Of a stretch of DNA of 64,000 bases, positions 22,954-58,869 are shown one piece after another (the stretch's first letter is position 1; each line of letters begins with the position of its first letter). Position numbers and translations under genes: made by a program. The stretch is taken from the NCBI RefSeq assembly GCF_002803605.1, contig NZ_PHRG01000005.1, forward strand, positions 124,001 to 188,000, given 5' to 3'. The stretch is from Acinetobacter pseudolwoffii. GTDB taxonomy: Bacteria; Pseudomonadota; Gammaproteobacteria; Pseudomonadales; Moraxellaceae. The notes under the pieces are model-generated. The model had not been told where the DNA came from and did not search any database. It saw nothing but the letters and a program-made list of their open reading frames with translations.

Positions 22954-24042
22954 ATGAAAGAATCGTTACGTTTACGATTAGACCAACTCTCTGACCGCCA
23001 CGAAGAGCTGACAGCATTATTGGCTGATATAGAAGTAATTTCAGACAATAAACGTTTTCGTCAGCTGTCGCGTGAGCATAATGACCTGACAGAAATCACC
23101 AGCGTTTGGAGCAAGTACAGACAGGCTGAAGAAGATATTGAAACAGCTCAGGCCATGTTGTCGGACCCGGACTTTAAGGAAATGGCACAAGAGGAAATCA
23201 AAGAAAATAAAGCTTTGATTGAAGCGCTTGAATCAGACCTGAATATTCTGATGATTCCAAAAGATCCAAATGATGCCAACTCTGCTTATCTGGAAATTCG
23301 TGCCGGAACCGGCGGCGATGAAGCAGCGATTTTCTCGGGTGATCTGTATCGCATGTATAGTAAATACGCAGAAAATCAAGGCTGGCGTATTGAAATCCTG
23401 TCAGAAAATGAAGGTGAACACGGCGGTTATAAAGAAGTGATTTGCCTGATCAATGGTGACGGTGTATATGGTCGCTTGAAGTTTGAGAGTGGTGCGCATC
23501 GTGTACAACGTGTGCCAGCAACCGAATCGCAAGGTCGTGTACATACGTCTGCTTGTACCGTTGCGATCTTACCGGAAGTCGATGTCGATACTTCGGTAGA
23601 AATCAATTCCTCGGATTTGCGGATTGATACTTACCGTGCCTCAGGTGCTGGTGGTCAGCATATTAACAAAACTGATTCTGCGGTACGTATTACCCATTTA
23701 CCGACAGGCACGGTAGTGGAGTGTCAGGATGAACGTTCGCAACACAAAAACAAAGCCAAAGCGATGGCACTTTTGGTGTCTCGTTTAGAAAATGCCAAAC
23801 GGGCTGCTGCCGATGCTGCAACCTCTGAAATGCGTCGTGATCTGGTTGGTTCAGGGGATCGTTCAGAACGTATTCGTACCTATAATTACCCTCAAGGTCG
23901 TATGACCGACCACCGCATTAACCTGACTTTATACAAGCTGGATGCGGTCATGGAAGGTGATTTGACCGAATTGCTGGACAGCCTGCATCGCGAATATCAG
24001 GCCGATCAGTTGGCCATGCTTGCACAGCAGAATGGTGGATAA
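22954..24042 (+). CDS. prfA: Peptide chain release factor 1
   Basis: A 362-residue class I release factor that reads UAA and UAG. The catalytic GGQ is in [20 protein letters not shown]; its Gln is the expected methylation site of PrmC, encoded next door. The codon-recognition tripeptide is PAT in [11 protein letters not shown], which marks RF1 rather than RF2. Length matches E. coli (360). The stop overlaps the prmC start by one base (TAATG), so the two are translationally coupled. It is the first gene of a two-gene operon that ends in a strong terminator. Confidence 0.98.
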
Positions 24043-50872: not shown

Positions 50873-51075
50873 AATGGCTGAATCGGGCATAATGCAGCAT
50901 CTCTTTTAAAAAAAACTATCAACCCGAATAAAAGACAAAAAAACATCTAATGAATAATAGAAATAGCCTAAGCGAAATGTACACTTTGTGACAATTTCTA
51001 AATCTAAAATATAGAAATACTTATCTTTATATTGAATAATGAATTTAACTCCAATTACCCGAGGAGTAACACAAT

Positions 51076-51345
51076 ATGCAAGTCGTCAGATATTTACATC
51101 ATTCTGATCTGCTCTTAGAAGATGAACATGGTGTAGTCATTATTGCTGGTAGTCGCTATGTCCTGAGCGTAGGCGACAAAGTATTTTTAAAGAAGGTGCT
51201 AGAACAAGAAAAAAAGCTGTATCAGGTGGATATTTCCTTTGCCAGCAATAATCACAGCACGATGTGTGAAGATGAATGTGTGGTGAAATTCAAAGGCTGC
51301 CGGGATTCATATCAGCAATATTTAAACTCGACCACTGTACACTAA
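51076..51345 (+). CDS. Hypothetical protein, 89 aa
   Basis: An 89-residue soluble protein. The N-terminal half looks beta-rich (VVRYLHHSDLLLEDEHGVVI, IAGSRYVLSVGDKVFLKKVL) and the C-terminal half has two close cysteines (STMCEDECVVKFKGC), three Cys in all, which may bind metal or form a disulfide. The SD is strong (CGAGGAG). No family was recognised. It is monocistronic, followed by a terminator, and lies upstream of acnB. Confidence 0.72.
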   Translation: MQVVRYLHHSDLLLEDEHGVVIIAGSRYVLSVGDKVFLKKVLEQEKKLYQVDISFASNNHSTMCEDECVVKFKGCRDSYQQYLNSTTVH

Positions 51346-51372
51346 GGTGGAGTATCTTTTTAACTTCAAATC

Positions 51373-51398
51373 AGGCAACATCATGGTTGCCTTTTTTA
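51373..51398 (+). terminator. Terminator after the 89-residue hypothetical gene
   Basis: A stem AGGCAAC / GTTGCCT with loop ATCATG and a T run. Confidence 0.85.
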
Positions 51399-51642
51399 TG
51401 CATTAAATTCAGTTAAAAGGGCCTGCTCATAGGCTTGTTTCTTGAGATCTGATCTAAAAGTGATTATTGAATAATCATTAAGAGCATCATTTAGTTATAA
51501 AATAACGAGCATCACAAAGAAACACTTGAGTTGCATTAACTTTTAACTGGAAATTTAGTAAAATTTCGGAGTCCATATTATTTGTGAAGCTTGGAATAAG
51601 CAGGAATTCATAAGTAATTTTTTAAAAAAGAGGAATAACACT

Positions 51643-54282
51643 GTGCTAGAAGCTTACCGCCAACACGTTGAAGAACGTGCCGCACTCGGAGTCCCACCGA
51701 AGCCACTTGACGATGCCCAAACCGCTGCATTAGTTGAACTACTAGTTAACCCGCCAGCTGGTGAAGAAGCATACTTGGTAGATTTGCTTGAAAACCGTGT
51801 ACCAGCAGGTGTTGACCAAGCTGCATATGTAAAAGCTGCGTTCTTGGCTGCATTGGCAAAAGGCGAAGCAACCTCTCCACTTGTTTCTAAAGAACGTGCG
51901 GTTTACTTGCTAGGTACTATGCTTGGTGGTTATAACGTAGCGCCTTTAGTTGAACTTTTAGACAACGCTGAACTTTCTGAGCTTGCTGCTGAAGCGCTTA
52001 AGAAAACGCTTCTTGTATTTGATGCATTCCACGATGTCGCTGATAAAGCAAAAGCGGGTAATGCAAATGCACAAGCTGTTATGCAGTCTTGGGCTGATGC
52101 TGAATGGTTTACTTCACGTCCAGACGTTCCTGAAGAAATCAAACTGACAGTTTTCAAAGTCACTGGCGAAACCAACACTGATGACTTGTCACCTGCACAA
52201 GATGCTTGGAGCCGCCCGGACATTCCATTGCACGCAAATGCAATGTTGAAAAACGTACGTGACGGAATCAAGCCGGAAGTTCCTGGTGAAGTGGGTCCAT
52301 TAAACCAAATCAAAGAATTGATCGCGAAAGGCAACCAGGTTGCTTACGTAGGTGACGTTGTTGGTACAGGTTCATCTCGTAAATCTGCAACCAACTCTGT
52401 GCTTTGGTTCTTTGGTGATGACATTGCTCATATCCCGAACAAAAAAGACGGTGGTTACTGCCTAGGTTCTAAAATTGCGCCAATTTTCTTCAACACGATG
52501 GAAGATGCGGGTGCATTACCGATCGAGATCGATGTTGGCAACATGAACATGGGCGATGAAATCGTTCTTAAAATCGATCATGCTGCTGCGAAAGTTTCTG
52601 CATCTAAAGACGGTGCTGTAATTGCTGAAGCTGATCTTAAAACACCTGTACTTCTAGACGAAGTTCGTGCTGGCGGTCGTATTAACCTGATCGTTGGTCG
52701 TGGTTTGACCACTAAAGCACGTGAAGCTTTAGGTCTTCCAGTATCTACGTTGTTCCGTACTCCGGTTCAACCTGCTGCAACTGGCAAAGGCTTCACTCAA
52801 GCACAGAAAATGGTTGGTCGCGCTTGTGGTCTTCCTGAAGGTCAAGGCGTACTTCCAGGTACTTACTGTGAACCTAAGATGACCACTGTTGGTTCGCAAG
52901 ATACCACTGGCCCAATGACGCGTGACGAATTGAAAGACTTGGCTTGCCTAGGTTTCTCTGCTGACCTTGTTATGCAGTCTTTCTGTCATACCGCTGCGTA
53001 TCCAAAGCCAGTTGACGTTCAAATGCAACACTCGCTTCCTGATTTCATCATGAACCGTGGTGGTGTGTCTTTACGTCCAGGTGACGGTATTATCCACTCT
53101 TGGTTAAACCGTATGCTTCTTCCGGATACTGTGGGTACTGGTGGTGACTCGCATACTCGTTTCCCAATCGGTATTTCGTTCCCGGCGGGTTCTGGTCTAG
53201 TAGCTTTTGCTGCAGCAACTGGTGTTATGCCACTTGATATGCCTGAATCTGTACTTGTGAAGTTCAAAGGTAAAATGCAGCCTGGTATCACGCTACGTGA
53301 CCTGGTACATGCAATTCCTTACTACGCAATTCAAGCGGGTGACTTAACTGTAGAGAAGAAAGGTAAGAAAAACATCTTCTCTGGTCGTATCCTTGAGATC
53401 GATTTGACAGAAATGGAAACTGACCTGACTGTTGAGCAAGCATTCGAATTGTCTGATGCTTCTGCTGAACGTTCAGCTGCTGGTTGTTCGATCACGCTTT
53501 CTGAAGAGAAAGTTGCTGAATACCTTCGTTCAAACATCACTATGCTTAAGTGGATGATTTCTGAAGGTTATGGCGATGCGCGTACGATGGCTCGTCGTGT
53601 TGAGAACATGGAAAAATGGTTAGCGAATCCATCACTTCTTAAAGCTGATGCGGATGCTGAATACACGAAAGTGTATGAAATCGATCTAGCTGACATTAAA
53701 GAACCTGTTCTTTGCTGCCCGAACGATCCAGATGATGCAAAACTTCTTTCTGACGTTCAAGGCGTGAAAATTGACGAAGTATTCGTTGGTTCTTGTATGA
53801 CAAACATTGGTCACTTCCGTGCGACTGGTAAATTGTTAGAGAAAGTTCCAGGTGGTGCATTGTCAACTCGTTTGTGGATTGCTCCGCCAACGCGTATGGA
53901 CGAACATCAGTTGATGGAAGAAGGTTTCTATAACATTTATGGTAAAGCTGGCGCGCGTACTGAAATGCCAGGTTGTTCATTATGTATGGGTAACCAGGCA
54001 CGTGTAGCTCCGAACACAACTTGTGTATCGACGTCTACACGTAACTTCCCGAACCGTCTAGGTCAGGGTGCTAACGTTTACTTGGCTTCTGCTGAACTTG
54101 CATCTGTTGCTGCTGTATTGGGTAAATTACCAACTCCAGAAGAATACCAACAATATGCAGCTCAAATTGACAGTATGTCAGCTGACATCTATCAATACTT
54201 AAGCTTCGACAAGATGAGCGAATATACTAACGCTGCTGCGAATGTTGATACGAAGAAAATTGCTGCTGCTCAGTTGACTTAA
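51643..54282 (+). CDS. acnB: Aconitate hydratase B
   Basis: An 879-residue aconitase B that interconverts citrate and isocitrate. The N-terminal HEAT-like domain opens MLEAYRQHVEERAALGVPPK; the swivel domain holds VVGTGSSRKSATNSVLWFFG; the cluster-binding cysteines are in FVGSCMTNIGHF and MPGCSLCMGNQARV. Length is near E. coli AcnB (865). The start is GTG with AAGAGG upstream. It has its own promoter region of about 240 bases after the previous terminator. The terminator after it is unusual in overlapping the start region of the OLD nuclease gene. Confidence 0.98.
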   Translation: MLEAYRQHVEERAALGVPPKPLDDAQTAALVELLVNPPAGEEAYLVDLLENRVPAGVDQAAYVKAAFLAALAKGEATSPLVSKERAVYLLGTMLGGYNVAPLVELLDNAELSELAAEALKKTLLVFDAFHDVADKAKAGNANAQAVMQSWADAEWFTSRPDVPEEIKLTVFKVTGETNTDDLSPAQDAWSRPDIPLHANAMLKNVRDGIKPEVPGEVGPLNQIKELIAKGNQVAYVGDVVGTGSSRKSATNSVLWFFGDDIAHIPNKKDGGYCLGSKIAPIFFNTMEDAGALPIEIDVGNMNMGDEIVLKIDHAAAKVSASKDGAVIAEADLKTPVLLDEVRAGGRINLIVGRGLTTKAREALGLPVSTLFRTPVQPAATGKGFTQAQKMVGRACGLPEGQGVLPGTYCEPKMTTVGSQDTTGPMTRDELKDLACLGFSADLVMQSFCHTAAYPKPVDVQMQHSLPDFIMNRGGVSLRPGDGIIHSWLNRMLLPDTVGTGGDSHTRFPIGISFPAGSGLVAFAAATGVMPLDMPESVLVKFKGKMQPGITLRDLVHAIPYYAIQAGDLTVEKKGKKNIFSGRILEIDLTEMETDLTVEQAFELSDASAERSAAGCSITLSEEKVAEYLRSNITMLKWMISEGYGDARTMARRVENMEKWLANPSLLKADADAEYTKVYEIDLADIKEPVLCCPNDPDDAKLLSDVQGVKIDEVFVGSCMTNIGHFRATGKLLEKVPGGALSTRLWIAPPTRMDEHQLMEEGFYNIYGKAGARTEMPGCSLCMGNQARVAPNTTCVSTSTRNFPNRLGQGANVYLASAELASVAAVLGKLPTPEEYQQYAAQIDSMSADIYQYLSFDKMSEYTNAAANVDTKKIAAAQLT

Positions 54283-54312
54283 TTTATTGAAAAATAAATT
54301 AAAGTAGTTTAT

Positions 54313-54339
54313 AAAAGCTCCACTTAGGTGGGGCTTTTT
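54313..54339 (+). terminator. acnB terminator containing the SD of the next gene
   Basis: A stem AGCTCCAC / GTGGGGCT (one G-U pair) with a TTAG loop, extended by A/T pairs and followed by a T run. The right arm and loop contain AGGTGG, the only SD-like sequence before the ATG at 54342, so ribosome access would be limited while the hairpin is folded. Confidence 0.75.
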
Positions 54340-54341
54340 CT

Positions 54342-56027
54342 ATGAAACTAACAAAATTTACGATTAAAAATTTCAGAAGTATTACGGATGGAGGAGAAAT
54401 TAATTTAAAAGATCAGTCCGTCCTAGTTGGTAAAAATAATGAGGGTAAAACTACTGTTTTACTTGCTTTGAAGTTAGCAATGGATACTTTAAAGTTTCAT
54501 GGATTATCTTATAAAAGTTTAGGAAGTGTACGTTTTAAACAGAGAAATAATTATGACTGGTATAGGGACTTTCCAATTTCTCTTCAAAATAAGCCACGCG
54601 CTAAAAATACATTATTTATATTAAATTTTGAGCTAAATGAAGATGAAAGACTAGATTTTTATAAAGTAATAAGAAGTAGAATCAATGGTGATTTATGTAT
54701 ACAGATTTCATTTGATCAAAATAATGTAGGTGAAATTCTTGTACCAAAACGTGGAAGTAGTTCTTTATCTGAAAAATCAGAGAAAATCGCAAAATACATT
54801 GCTGAAAAAATTCAATTTACATATATACCAGCGGTAAGAACTGAACAAGAAGCTTTAGATGTAATTAATGAAATGGTCGAAGAGGAATTAGCAAAATTAG
54901 AAAGTGATGAAGATTTTAAACAAGCATTAGCTGTAATCGAAAATTTACAAAAACCTGTATTAGATAAAGTTGCAAATACTATTAAAGATTCTTTACATAA
55001 ATTTTTGCCAAATATTAAATCAGTACAATTAAGAATCTCTGATTCAGCTAGAAGATATAGATTAAGAAAAGATTATGTTATTGAGGTTGATGATGGTGAT
55101 CAAACCGATATTAAATATAAAGGTGATGGAGTGAAAAGCCTAGCAGCTATCGGTTTGTTGAAAGATAGAAATAGAATTCATAATGGGGCATCTATTATTG
55201 CTATTGAAGAACCAGAATCACATTTACATCCTTCAGCAATGCACAGTTTGAAAGTGGCTGTTGAAGAGCTGTCTATAGTAAACCAGTTAGTTATATCAAC
55301 ACATAATCCAGTGTTTGTTGACAGAGATGAGCTATCTAATAATATTTTAGTATCGAATAATAAAGTAAAATCAGTTAAGAAAATTCAAGAAATTCGTGAT
55401 TGCTTGGGTGTTAGAACTTCTGATAATTTGGAGCATGCACGTAAAGTTATTATTGTTGAAGGTGAATGTGACAGTATTATTATTAAAAAACTTATAACCG
55501 AGAGGAGTCAAAAACTATCAAAAATAATGAAAGATGGTGATTTAATAATTAAATTTTTGGGTGGTGTGAGTAAATTAAATTATGAACTTAAACATTATCA
55601 AGATATGCTTTGCTCATGTTTTGTTATTGTGGATAACGATGAGGCCTCAAAATCAATCATACCAAAACTACTCGATTCTACTGAGTTAAATAATAATTCT
55701 TATAGCTATTTAATGGCGAAGGGAAAAAAAGAAACAGAAATTGAAAATTTATTTAAAATTGAATTTTATTCAAATAAAGTAGATCAGGAATTTGGGATTG
55801 ACCTTAAGAACACCAAATTTAGTAAAGATAATAGTAAGTGGAGTACTGCTTTGAAAAGCGTATTAGAAGCTCAGGGTAAAGTTGTCACAGATTCCATTTT
55901 AACTACACTTAAGAAGCATATAACTGCACAAGTTAGTCAGTATGGTGTATACGAAAATATTTATGATTGTAATCATGAATATATAGATAATCTTATTCTC
56001 CAACTAGAGCGAAAATTTATAAAATGA
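54342..56027 (+). CDS. OLD-family ATP-dependent nuclease (AAA ATPase plus TOPRIM)
   Basis: A 561-residue protein with an ABC-like ATPase and a C-terminal TOPRIM domain. Walker A is GKNNEGKTT (residues 30-38), Walker B SIIAIEEPESHLHPSAM, the H-loop TSTHNPVFVD-like STHNPVFVDRDE, and the TOPRIM motifs are VIIVEGECDS (Glu373) and CFVIVDNDEAS (Asp431, Asp433). OLD proteins are ATP-regulated nucleases linked to phage defence. Base composition is far more AT-rich than in acnB and gltS on either side, and codons favour A/T, which indicates recent acquisition. No UvrD-like partner is adjacent, so this is not a Gabija pair; a solitary class 1-type OLD is more likely. Confidence 0.9.
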   Translation: MKLTKFTIKNFRSITDGGEINLKDQSVLVGKNNEGKTTVLLALKLAMDTLKFHGLSYKSLGSVRFKQRNNYDWYRDFPISLQNKPRAKNTLFILNFELNEDERLDFYKVIRSRINGDLCIQISFDQNNVGEILVPKRGSSSLSEKSEKIAKYIAEKIQFTYIPAVRTEQEALDVINEMVEEELAKLESDEDFKQALAVIENLQKPVLDKVANTIKDSLHKFLPNIKSVQLRISDSARRYRLRKDYVIEVDDGDQTDIKYKGDGVKSLAAIGLLKDRNRIHNGASIIAIEEPESHLHPSAMHSLKVAVEELSIVNQLVISTHNPVFVDRDELSNNILVSNNKVKSVKKIQEIRDCLGVRTSDNLEHARKVIIVEGECDSIIIKKLITERSQKLSKIMKDGDLIIKFLGGVSKLNYELKHYQDMLCSCFVIVDNDEASKSIIPKLLDSTELNNNSYSYLMAKGKKETEIENLFKIEFYSNKVDQEFGIDLKNTKFSKDNSKWSTALKSVLEAQGKVVTDSILTTLKKHITAQVSQYGVYENIYDCNHEYIDNLILQLERKFIK

Positions 56028-56166
56028 AGAAATGCTAAGCCCAGTAAATGATTTTTTAGTTTAAATTGCGATCAATTGGTAAGTAATCATTAACTAGACC
56101 TTACAACTAAACTCAATCATCGTTTAATCTTTACATTGAAAAATGATTTAGCAAGTTGATGTAGTA

Positions 56167-56388
56167 ATGCCCAAACAATCCCGATTTTTATGTATTGGTG
56201 GTTTCCTCAATGGAACGCAAGTTAAAGACCAAGGCGATAACTTTGTCTGTGTCGAAAAGTCTAAAAATGTGACTTACACAAAAAAGGAAATTTTCCATCC
56301 TGACGCTTGGGATCATGACTACTATGTCTGTGAAAGCACCACAGATCAGCAAGCGCGCAACTGGGTTTATGATATTCCATCCCGTTAA
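56167..56388 (+). CDS. Hypothetical protein, 73 aa
   Basis: A 73-residue protein, MPKQSRFLCIGGFLNGTQVK at the start, with a Tyr/Asp-rich C-terminal half (WDHDYYVCESTTDQQARNWV). It has two cysteines and no membrane segment. The SD is poor (only GATG nearby). It resembles small proteins found near mobile or phage-related genes, but I cannot name a family. It lies between the OLD nuclease and gltS and could have come with the former. Confidence 0.55.
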   Translation: MPKQSRFLCIGGFLNGTQVKDQGDNFVCVEKSKNVTYTKKEIFHPDAWDHDYYVCESTTDQQARNWVYDIPSR

Positions 56389-56512
56389 TTGCATCTATTC
56401 AGGCTATAAATTAAACAATTATTAGAAACAATAACTTGCATTACATTTCTGTGGTTGATTTTTCATACCTCTTTCCTAAAACTGTATGAAAATAAAGCCA
56501 ATAGGGAATGTT

Positions 56513-57736
56513 ATGACTTATGAAATAGATGCCTTTGGCACTCTGGTAATTGCTGTTTTTTTTCTTTTTATTGGGCGGTATCTTGTTAGTAAAATTAGCT
56601 TCTTTAGGAACTATAACTTACCTGAACCTGTAATCGGTGGTTTAGTCGCAGCGATTACGGCCTTTATTCTCTATAAATTGTTTAATATCAGTGCCACATT
56701 TGACGCACAAATTCAAACCATCCTGATGCTGATGTTCTTTACTTCTGTTGGCTTAAGTGCAGACTTTTTGAAACTGAAAGAAGGTGGAAAATCGCTCCTG
56801 ACCTTCTTGGTCTGTGTCATTTTATTTGTAGTCGTGCAAAATGCTGTCGGTATGAGTTTAGCCACAGCGCTTGGACTTGATCCACTGATTGGCTTGATTG
56901 TCGGTTCCGTCACCTTAACGGGTGGTCATGGTACCGCCGGTGCCTGGGGCGAGGTTCTGGAAACTCAATATGCGATCCAGGGAGCAGTTGTCCTTGGTAT
57001 GGCAAGTGCTACCTTTGGCTTGATTATTGGTGGACTTGTGGGCGGTCCAGTTGCCAAGTTCCTGATTAAACGCAACCAACTGGCTGAAACAGTAGCGCAA
57101 GAGACTAATGAACAGCAGCTCGAATCGCACATCAACACTGCGCCCTTTGAATATCCAAAGAAAACCCGATTGATTACATCCAGTAATGCCGTGTCGACTT
57201 TGGGGATGTTTGCCCTGTGTATTTTTGTCGCCAATCAGATGACAGACTTCAGTCAGGGAAGATGGTTTGAATTGCCCACTTTTGTATGGGCTTTAGGCAC
57301 AGGTGTGATTGTGCGTAATGTCTTGGAGCATGTGCTGAAAGTCGATATCTTCGACCGTGCAATCGATGTATTTGGCAATGCGTCTTTATCCCTGTATTTA
57401 TCTATGGCTTTACTATCACTACAACTCTGGTTACTGGCCGATTTGGCAGGTCCGCTCATTACCATTTTATTGGCGCAGACAGCGGTATTGATTTTATTTA
57501 CCGCAATTGTGACCTTTAGAATTATGGGCAAAAATTACGATGCAGCAGTATTAGTGGCAGGGCATTGTGGTTTTGGTATGGGGGCAACACCGACAGCGAT
57601 TGCCAATATTCAGGCGGTGACCAATAGCTATGGTCCATCACATAAAGCTTTTTTAATTGTACCGCTGTGTGGTGCATTTTTTATTGATATTGTGAATGCT
57701 GTGGTGATCCAAAGCATCATTGCATTTTTCGGCTAA
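56513..57736 (+). CDS. gltS: Sodium/glutamate symporter
   Basis: A 407-residue ESS-family transporter that imports glutamate with Na+. The inverted repeat of the family is visible as two halves, each with a glycine-rich reentrant loop: GSVTLTGGHGTAGAWGEVLE and GHCGFGMGATPTAIANIQAV. Around ten hydrophobic segments are present. The ATG at 56513 (MTYEIDAFGTLVIAV) has AGGGA seven bases upstream and gives a length near E. coli GltS (401); a start at 56486 would add nine residues. Monocistronic. Confidence 0.95.
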   Translation: MTYEIDAFGTLVIAVFFLFIGRYLVSKISFFRNYNLPEPVIGGLVAAITAFILYKLFNISATFDAQIQTILMLMFFTSVGLSADFLKLKEGGKSLLTFLVCVILFVVVQNAVGMSLATALGLDPLIGLIVGSVTLTGGHGTAGAWGEVLETQYAIQGAVVLGMASATFGLIIGGLVGGPVAKFLIKRNQLAETVAQETNEQQLESHINTAPFEYPKKTRLITSSNAVSTLGMFALCIFVANQMTDFSQGRWFELPTFVWALGTGVIVRNVLEHVLKVDIFDRAIDVFGNASLSLYLSMALLSLQLWLLADLAGPLITILLAQTAVLILFTAIVTFRIMGKNYDAAVLVAGHCGFGMGATPTAIANIQAVTNSYGPSHKAFLIVPLCGAFFIDIVNAVVIQSIIAFFG

Positions 57737-57770
57737 ATGTTAATACGTTTTTAAAATCATACATGCAATA

Positions 57771-57792
57771 AAAAGCCCCATGGTTAGGGGCT
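57771..57792 (-). terminator. Hairpin downstream of the alpha/beta hydrolase gene
   Basis: A stem AGCCCC / GGGGCT with a seven-base loop. Only the minus strand has the T run (TTTTTATT), so it ends transcription of the hydrolase gene, about 97 bases past its stop. Confidence 0.7.
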
Positions 57793-57888
57793 AGTCGTAT
57801 ATAGGTCAAGCCCATATACTGTAAGAGGCTCATCTCAAACTGAGTGTATTAGAACATAGCAGCTTGCAAATAACCATCTAAATCTGAT

Positions 57889-58752
57889 TTAAACCGTCAA
57901 TTGTTGTTCAATCACCGGCCATAAATTCTCATGTGATTTTTTAAACATCAGCATATGGCCAATGGCTTTATGCGCATATCTTTTAGGTTGAAGCTCAATC
58001 ATCTGAGTATCTGCATTGGGGTATAAACGCAGTAAATCTTTTACATTTGCTTCTGTTGCAATTTCATCATCCGATGACCAGATCGAAATAATCGGGCAGG
58101 TGATTTGAGCATGAAAATCTGAGCGTGGCAATATGGTTTTACCCATTGCATTCATGACATAGCCCGGTTTGCTACAGAACTGTGCCCATTCACGCGCCAC
58201 ATCTTTAGGCAGATTTTCGCCCATGCCAATGGCTTGAGTCGGAGCATATCCTTTGCTCATACGGGCCAGTGGGAAAATGAGATTGAACATGACCGGCGCC
58301 AGCAGTTTGGTTTTACCTTTAAGTCCTTTGACATGTCCGGTTGAGCCAGCAACAGCCACCACTTTTGCAACTTTGTCATAATTCGGTACGATCCCCAGAA
58401 GCTGACCACCAGCACTATGCCCCAGCAAAATCACTTTTTCTGCATGAGTACGTGCTAATAAAGCATCAATCGCGGCGGGAATATCCAGTTGACCCCATTG
58501 CACAATGCTGGCTTTGGACTGTTTTAAAGGGCCTGCGAGTGACTCACCAATTCCCCGAAAGTCAAAGACCAGTACCGCATAGCCCTGAGCTTGCAACCAG
58601 ATGCAGAAATGATGATAAAACTGTTGGGTAATACCTGTGGCAGGACAGACCAATACCGGACGTTTTTCAGATTCTGAAGAAGCCGCATAAAAGCGTGCAC
58701 TTAAGTGATAGCCATCCTGGCACTGTAGAGTCAATGTTTCAAATTCAGACAT
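57889..58752 (-). CDS. Alpha/beta hydrolase
   Basis: A 287-residue alpha/beta hydrolase-fold protein of the serine aminopeptidase S33-like group. The nucleophile elbow is ILLGHSAGGQLLG; the oxyanion region is PVLVCPATGITQQFYHHFCI and the following VLVFDFRGIGESLAG; Asp is likely in PIISIWSSDDEIATE and His near KAIGHMLMFKKSHENLW. Substrate unknown. The ATG at 58752 (MSEFETL) fits the family; the frame stays open upstream to 58824 but adds residues unlike the family. It diverges from the small membrane protein gene at 58870. Confidence 0.9.
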   Translation of the reverse strand: MSEFETLTLQCQDGYHLSARFYAASSESEKRPVLVCPATGITQQFYHHFCIWLQAQGYAVLVFDFRGIGESLAGPLKQSKASIVQWGQLDIPAAIDALLARTHAEKVILLGHSAGGQLLGIVPNYDKVAKVVAVAGSTGHVKGLKGKTKLLAPVMFNLIFPLARMSKGYAPTQAIGMGENLPKDVAREWAQFCSKPGYVMNAMGKTILPRSDFHAQITCPIISIWSSDDEIATEANVKDLLRLYPNADTQMIELQPKRYAHKAIGHMLMFKKSHENLWPVIEQQLTV

Positions 58753-58869
58753 ACGATACACTATGATTTTAGCTTCCTGATGAAGCTTTAACTTTATACA
58801 GTTTTTGAAGGGATGCTTGCGCAAAGCATGACTTAAAAGTCAGTAAAATAATAGATATGGAATGAGCTT

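Follow-up and report, generated by a model that had tools for sequence, protein, structure and literature searches.

The acnB Locus and Its OLD Gene

The DNA considered here, referred to as the window, is a stretch of 64,000 nucleotides from Acinetobacter pseudolwoffii. In this window a solitary gene of the OLD family lies between acnB and a small conserved gene of 73 codons, and a gltS-like gene follows. The features of the locus are listed below.

51643–54282, + strand: acnB (aconitate hydratase B), the fixed left flank of the slot described in the next section (ORF call)
54287–54315, + strand: promoter-like TTGAAA-N17-TATAAA abutting the hairpin (matrix score)
54313–54339, + strand: intrinsic terminator hairpin and T-run after acnB; its loop and 3' arm hold AGGTGG
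54342–56027, + strand: slot cargo, a solitary Class 1-type OLD ATPase/Toprim gene of 561 aa (ORF, Pfam, PADLOC)
56028–56166, no strand: junction from the OLD stop to the right anchor, 139 nt here
56167–56388, + strand: right anchor, a 73-aa conserved hypothetical gene on the far side of the slot
56486–57736, + strand: gltS-like gene (ORF call)

An earlier note on this DNA, made from the letters alone, described the ORF at 54342–56027 as an AT-rich, solitary OLD-type gene that keeps its key motifs and belongs to a family with known members in phage defence. Library searches agree with this assignment (Pfam: AAA_15, E = 3e-26, and OLD-like_TOPRIM, E = 4e-6; PADLOC: Old, E = 5e-32). The Walker A motif (GKNNEGKT, residues 30–37) is intact, the Toprim residues E373, D431, and D433 are all present, and the stretch IEEPESHL, which begins at residue 288 and was examined as the Walker B, is invariant in the five aligned copies. 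Residues E373 and D377 are also invariant across the aligned OLD copies; this alignment (A1) contains five sequences, with the L043 copy contributing only 390 residues. In the excerpted text of PMC7049728, the metal-A residues of Thermus scotoductus OLD are E377, D431, and D433, which E373, D431, and D433 of the present protein fit. An AlphaFold2 model built from the five sequences was poor (mean pLDDT 43.4).

The characterized Class 1 OLD proteins (P2 Old, T. scotoductus OLD, and E. coli YbjD/OldB) likewise combine an ABC ATPase with a C-terminal Toprim domain. Excerpts of PMC7049728 and, for YbjD, of PMC13261556 describe isolated genes with the metal-A E/D/D residues in place, as is seen here, where no UvrD-like helicase is adjacent and the OLD gene is followed by the 73-aa ORF and gltS. 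In contrast to the characterized proteins, the present sequence is distant from its best solved relative (6p74, title: OLD family endonuclease; E = 6e-9), its nuclease and anti-phage actions are predictions, and full-length close copies of it occur in only one chromosomal slot among 175 genomes of the genus. By homology, the protein would be expected to hinder phage, working as an ATPase-nuclease of the Class 1 OLD type. The solitary OLD-type ATPase/Toprim gene of the earlier note is therefore borne out, and the phage-defence role is plausible by homology.

Other assignments and origins were considered for this gene and rejected. There is no GajB UvrD-like helicase beside the ORF, as would be found in Gabija, and no other ORF of RT or AriB size lies between acnB and gltS, as would be found in Retron Eco8 or PARIS. 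The NCBIfam model for Eco8 scores 20.6 bits against a cut-off of 250, and no Rfam family reaches its gathering score in 54100–56600. With regard to origin, no match was found among 50,697 phage records. Of 72,556 plasmid records only 27 match, the best at 42% identity and none of them from Acinetobacter as judged by the first word of the record. The best plasmid match covers 529864–531414 of CP061270.1, a record of 1.2 Mb that is labelled an E. coli plasmid.

A Replacement Slot behind acnB

The comparison of the acnB–gltS interval across relatives, which the earlier note had proposed, proved to be the right test, as it revealed a replacement slot. The C-terminal part of acnB was matched in 174 of 175 Acinetobacter genomes, and the regions after acnB were fetched for 120 genomes chosen from the matches listed among these 174. 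Selection was by eye, with some contig-edge and some look-alike genomes left aside, and nine further genomes were fetched for single checks. ORFs were called mechanically, and a few slot ORFs may be wrong or may be pseudogenes.

The same 73-aa gene is found on the far side in 76 of the 120 loci (one of these anchors, in L136, is degenerate); the other 44 do not contain it in the stretch fetched, which is less than 2 kb in four of them. Within the family, the anchor was found in 96 of 348 genomes, all within one of 16 genera, and its protein has no match in Pfam or NCBIfam. The gltS-like gene behind the anchor is present in some genomes and absent in others. Among the 76 slots with two flanks, 72 are occupied and four are empty, with 143–184 bp between stem and anchor. 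The slots are small, with a median length of 1.4 kb and 73 of the 76 at or below 2.5 kb; a single ORF of at least 60 aa makes up 45 of them, and 27 contain two or more. When the first ORFs of the occupied slots are clustered, 35 clusters are obtained, 16 of them single (L105 contributed only its first ORF to the clustering).

The diversity of these occupants is accompanied by a marked regularity in their placement. The first cargo ORF is on the acnB strand in 69 of 72 loci, and the ORF start falls between -6 and 30 nt from the terminator stem for 54 of 69 slot ORFs, vs 12 of 585 background ORFs. At the other end, the junction from cargo stop to anchor is 19–54 nt in the four other OLD loci vs the 139 nt observed here. 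The sharp fall in GC content reported for the OLD ORF is real (28.9% vs 45.6% in acnB and 43.3% in gltS); it is not, however, peculiar to OLD, as first cargo ORFs average 28.8% GC, and in every one of the 72 occupied loci the first ORF is poorer in GC than the C-terminal part of acnB. Neither positions 51000–58800 of the window nor any of the 76 slots contains a tRNA or tmRNA gene that could serve as a landing site.

The locus has the fixed flanks and the non-homologous, interchangeable cargo of a defence replacement hotspot. These results strongly support the identification of the interval between acnB and the 73-aa gene as a replacement slot, of which the OLD gene is the present occupant. 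The slot is found across much of the genus and is often filled with defence-type genes. The OLD gene finding is real, and is more interesting than first stated for another reason, namely that the gene occupies a replacement slot. The slot of L105 (genome G174) is 5.9 kb long and has the 73-aa gene twice, as though a pair of slots had been fused.

Cargo of the Slot

The content of the slot has been probed with Pfam on 39 cargo representatives, 14 of which match above the curated cut-off. Matches on the defence side are PDDEXK_4 (two), Mrr_cat, DUF4062, putAbiC (two), and GmrSD_N, to which RNase_T, HEPN_RiboL-PSP, DUF4365, AAA_15, and SLFN_AlbA_2 are added; two of the 14 (FGE-sulfatase and Sel1) are not defence-like. 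PADLOC matched nine of 20 representatives with E up to 1e-4, the strongest matches being PDC-S46 (9e-228), PD-T4-2_A (2e-151), PD-T4-4_A (4e-99), and PDC-S26 (1e-66); the match in L054 is probably a mere coiled-coil match. Among ten more cargo ORFs searched with Pfam, five gave no match and one is a short-chain dehydrogenase, which is likewise not defence-like; the others are transposases, found in three loci. The small cargo ORF clusters 27 and 46 were left out of the library scans. Many cargo types appear, by sequence, to belong to defence families (PD-(D/E)XK, Mrr, AbiC-like, PD-T4-2, PD-T4-4, HEPN, OLD), and a defence role of the cargo is suggested by homology only.

The acnB slot offers a fixed address at which unknown defence genes of Acinetobacter could be read off. 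The 25 of 39 representatives that have no Pfam match above the cut-off share this site with PD-T4-2, PD-T4-4, AbiC-like, Mrr, and PD-(D/E)XK genes. One family w/o a Pfam match (cluster 3; L059, L062, L076, L103, and L107) comprises proteins of at most 111 aa, some of them shortened, and recurs as the last slot ORF after different first genes.

Transposases of the DDE_Tnp_1, rve, and HTH types were observed inside or beside the cargo of L056, L089, and L091, and the rve matches belong to IS-type transposases. Cargo from a single cluster is split into two pieces in L089 and L091, with the transposase between them. The OLD copy of L043 (genome G113) contains an in-frame TAG after 390 codons with the remaining frame open, and may be either a decaying occupant or an assembly error.

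Residency and Exchange of the Cargo

Searches of the 175 genomes indicate that the cargo families examined reside in this slot. All five full-length OLD copies are immediate downstream neighbours of acnB, with the 73-aa gene on their other side; the four besides the present one share 61–90% identity and one of them has an in-frame stop, and three further genomes gave only partial matches at 27–30%. A 705-aa cargo family is in the slot in eight of eight genomes, seven times beside acnB and once beside the 73-aa gene with acnB cut by the contig end. Copies of the Mrr-type gene at 57% identity or above are found after acnB in seven of seven cases (the copy in G084 is 0.4 kb further on, with no 73-aa gene found); four of the five copies at 39–44% are elsewhere, and the fifth, in G148, has no placement relative to acnB. 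For PDC-S46, three of three copies at 59% identity or above follow acnB, and one at 35% is elsewhere. Among the six distant copies without a known slot position, AGGGG shortly precedes the ATG in three (two of them near-identical) and is absent in three. In the slot copies, the T-run is followed directly by the ATG or by a short leader of the TTGAG/TTGGA type that is common to unrelated genes.

These data bear on the possibility that a mobile element which targets terminators inserts the cargo, with a recombinase supplied in trans. Such an element would account for unrelated cargo families that start almost exactly at the T-run, and IS transposases are present in a few slots. Against this, close copies of four cargo families were located, among the 175 genomes, nowhere but behind acnB or ahead of the anchor; Pfam scans of 49 cargo representatives showed no tyrosine or serine recombinase family; and one breakpoint, described below, lies inside the anchor gene. 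Insertion by a mobile element is consequently considered improbable.

Exchange of the cargo is apparent from two pairs of loci, neither of which contains OLD. In L046 and L055 the cargo is identical over 684 nt, while identity is 97% at the end of acnB and 83% in the 73-aa gene; the two are near-identical from the terminator onward, with the first mismatch in the 73-aa gene at nt 72 and ~78% identity thereafter. In L062 and L141 the cargo is 97% identical vs 86% for acnB and 77% for the 73-aa gene, and the change on the left is near the T-run. Both profiles are those of horizontal exchange, and the simplest reading of them would be homologous recombination in the flanks. Acinetobacter is known for natural competence, and natural transformation may be the route through which cargo is exchanged.

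Most other pairs that share cargo are old, with cargo identities of 66–88%. For the OLD loci L039 and L040, cargo and flank identities are alike (88%, 89%, and 80%), and because the OLD pairs have similar identities in cargo and flanks, no recent swap is evident for the OLD gene. Similar divergence of this kind, as well as the broken occupants in L043, L089, and L091, would also be expected if the cargo genes were ancestral at this site and had been lost differently in each lineage. This explanation is scarcely credible given that 35 first-ORF clusters are found in one place and that the identical cargo and diverged right flank of L046 and L055 contradict it unless the assemblies are wrong.

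Comparison with Known Hotspots

Defence hotspots in Acinetobacter were reportedly the subject of work by Yi et al. in 2025 (Commun Biol), which by its title shares both genus and subject with the acnB slot. Among the literature titles and abstract openings listed, none names acnB as a defence site, which is not a claim of absence from print, and the titles listed on promoters that overlap terminators include nothing on the acnB site. One of the listed papers, on silver resistance, contains the word acnB twice. Integron gene cassettes are interchangeable, mostly promoterless genes behind a fixed leader, and the acnB slot resembles them in this one respect, in that interchangeable genes follow a fixed leader; unlike integrons, the scanned slot cargo contains no tyrosine recombinase.

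Other bacteria are known to have hotspots set between core genes, such as cDHS1 and cDHS2 of P. aeruginosa, which, in the excerpts of PMC10250203, resemble the acnB slot in their fixed core flanks, non-homologous defence cargo, and discordance between cargo and flanks. The likeness reportedly extends in the same respects to the defence-island hotspots of E. coli (PMC10121019). The scale is different, as the same P. aeruginosa excerpts give medians of 26 kb for cDHS1 and 6 kb for cDHS2 whereas the acnB slot mostly contains one or two genes (median 1.4 kb). Both cDHS are also described there as having a tRNA or tmRNA at a flank (PMC10250203), in contrast to 76 of 76 acnB slots, and in the acnB slot, unlike the cDHS, the cargo start is tied to a terminator. 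As far as the search extended, what is unusual is that the cargo is of single-gene scale and joins tightly to a terminator overlapped by a promoter-like element.

The Terminator, Its Hairpin, and Cargo Expression

The hairpin between the acnB stop and the ATG is strong and has arms at 54313–54323 and 54328–54338, a TTAG loop, and a T-run at 54335–54339. A simple terminator scan of the window does not list it, in our reading because part of the T-run belongs to the stem. The AGGTGG sequence occupies 54326–54331, of which two bases fall in the loop and the remaining four in the 3' arm. Consequently, the SD-like AGGTGG noted earlier and its overlap with the stem are real; the ATG is two bases past the T-run rather than the three originally given.

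From this overlap the earlier note had proposed a sequestered SD, in which the stem acts as a switch that readthrough, or a change of termination caused by phage, would open, and folding does pair AGGTGG here (unpaired probability 0.22). The comparison of loci does not support such a switch. A terminator-like hairpin was called in 120 of 120 fetched loci (the call in L082 is wrong, and this locus was left out of the terminator counts); the CCAC/GTGG type is present in five of 120 and another type in 115. Four of the five OLD loci have the CCAC/GTGG type, three with AGGTGG and one (L041) with GGGTGG, while the OLD gene of L042 follows the hairpin GGGCTGA-TTAA-TCAGCCC, which has neither CCAC/GTGG nor AGGTGG. 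In L072, the AGGTGG hairpin precedes an unrelated DUF4365 gene. Due to L042, L041, and L072, the AGGTGG hairpin is neither constant with OLD nor specific to it, and as a conserved device the switch is rejected since the hairpin type varies among OLD loci. AGGTGG in the stem looks like a trait of one terminator variant, and a switch evolved for OLD is very improbable.

The earlier note had also named an internal promoter, beforehand, as a result that would speak against its proposal, and a sigma70-like element overlapping the hairpin was found. This element consists of TTGAAA (54287–54292), 17 bases, and TATAAA (54310–54315), with a predicted start at ~54322 in the 5' arm of the hairpin. It is not listed by a sigma70 scan of the window because that scan requires the last -10 position to be T. 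Scored with an approximate sigma70 matrix for E. coli, the element is equalled by one of 284 background Acinetobacter terminators. In addition, TTG is found 30–32 nt before the GC core in 16 of 27 non-redundant leaders.

A plainer explanation is that a leaky acnB terminator gives a low, constant level of cargo mRNA by readthrough, and that the element is a by-product of AT-richness and of the terminator A-tract. The shared direction of acnB and 69 of 72 first cargo ORFs is consistent with this, and 28 of 68 loci have their ATG at most 8 nt from the stem, too close for a promoter to fit between hairpin and gene. The contrast of the element with its own dinucleotide shuffles is also weak (mean score 4.44 vs 1.80, with the top 5% reached by just 33% of 119 loci; p = 0.03 at this locus). 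However, 70% of the 91 acnB terminators scored exceed the 95th percentile of the 284 other terminators (28 of 119 loci were left out because the hairpin is too close to the stop codon), although the acnB loci are related by ancestry and hence not independent in these statistics. Promoter scores with and without an immediate gene have medians of 4.88 vs 4.71 (p = 0.005), a small difference, and since the scores barely differ, the element may belong to the acnB tail whatever follows. Taken together, a putative promoter embedded in the acnB terminator is moderately supported.

Folding predictions also argue against plain readthrough, as the ribosome site would be costly to open in readthrough RNA. 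At this locus, the unpaired probability of the AGGTGGGGC region is 0.22 in readthrough RNA vs 0.76 in the predicted transcript, and opening of -18 to +15 costs 18.4 vs 4.7 kcal/mol. The AUG is no more open (0.33 vs 0.35), and a start two bases earlier would retain a short hairpin (unpaired 0.46). Among 68 loci, 52 have an opening cost that falls by over 3 kcal/mol in the predicted transcript, and the 28 whose ATG is no more than 8 nt from the stem have medians of 21.4 vs 6.3; part of this drop arises because one hairpin arm is removed. Cargo expression by readthrough alone is judged the less likely reading.

The preferred reading has a rough probability of 0.7 and joins an exchangeable, defence-type slot, recombination in its flanks, a promoter abutting the hairpin, and an anti-phage role of the OLD protein. 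Small, mostly single-gene, often defence-type cargo would be swapped between Acinetobacter species, probably after DNA uptake, by recombination in the left flank, at acnB and its terminator, and in the right flank, at the beginning of the 73-aa gene. The new occupant would be set just behind the acnB terminator and would use the leader of the slot instead of its own. Most likely, the promoter whose -10 box abuts the hairpin would start transcription in the upstream arm. As judged from sequence and folding, the cargo mRNA would then lack the full hairpin, leaving the start region more open and the AGGTGG region freed, and readthrough transcripts from acnB would carry a hairpin that hinders translation.

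A more specific proposal, put forward tentatively, is that ~55 bp may serve as an integrase-free platform that both ends acnB transcription and drives recombined bare coding sequences from the in-arm promoter. If this is true, defence genes w/o a promoter or strong SD could be swapped and would be insulated from the upstream gene. The expression and cross-species exchange of bare single genes w/o a visible mobile element thus present a testable question.

Elsewhere in the window, another ORF (22954–24042, + strand) starts 13 nt past a hairpin and T-run. In many genomes an extra stem-loop block, TAATGAGCTAGG...GCAAGAGCAAATCTATGATTTGC or similar, is shared between acnB and the terminator, within ~70 nt of the acnB stop (e.g., L046–L048, L052, L053, L055, L076, L144, L149, and L158). 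The block is perhaps a small repeat element.
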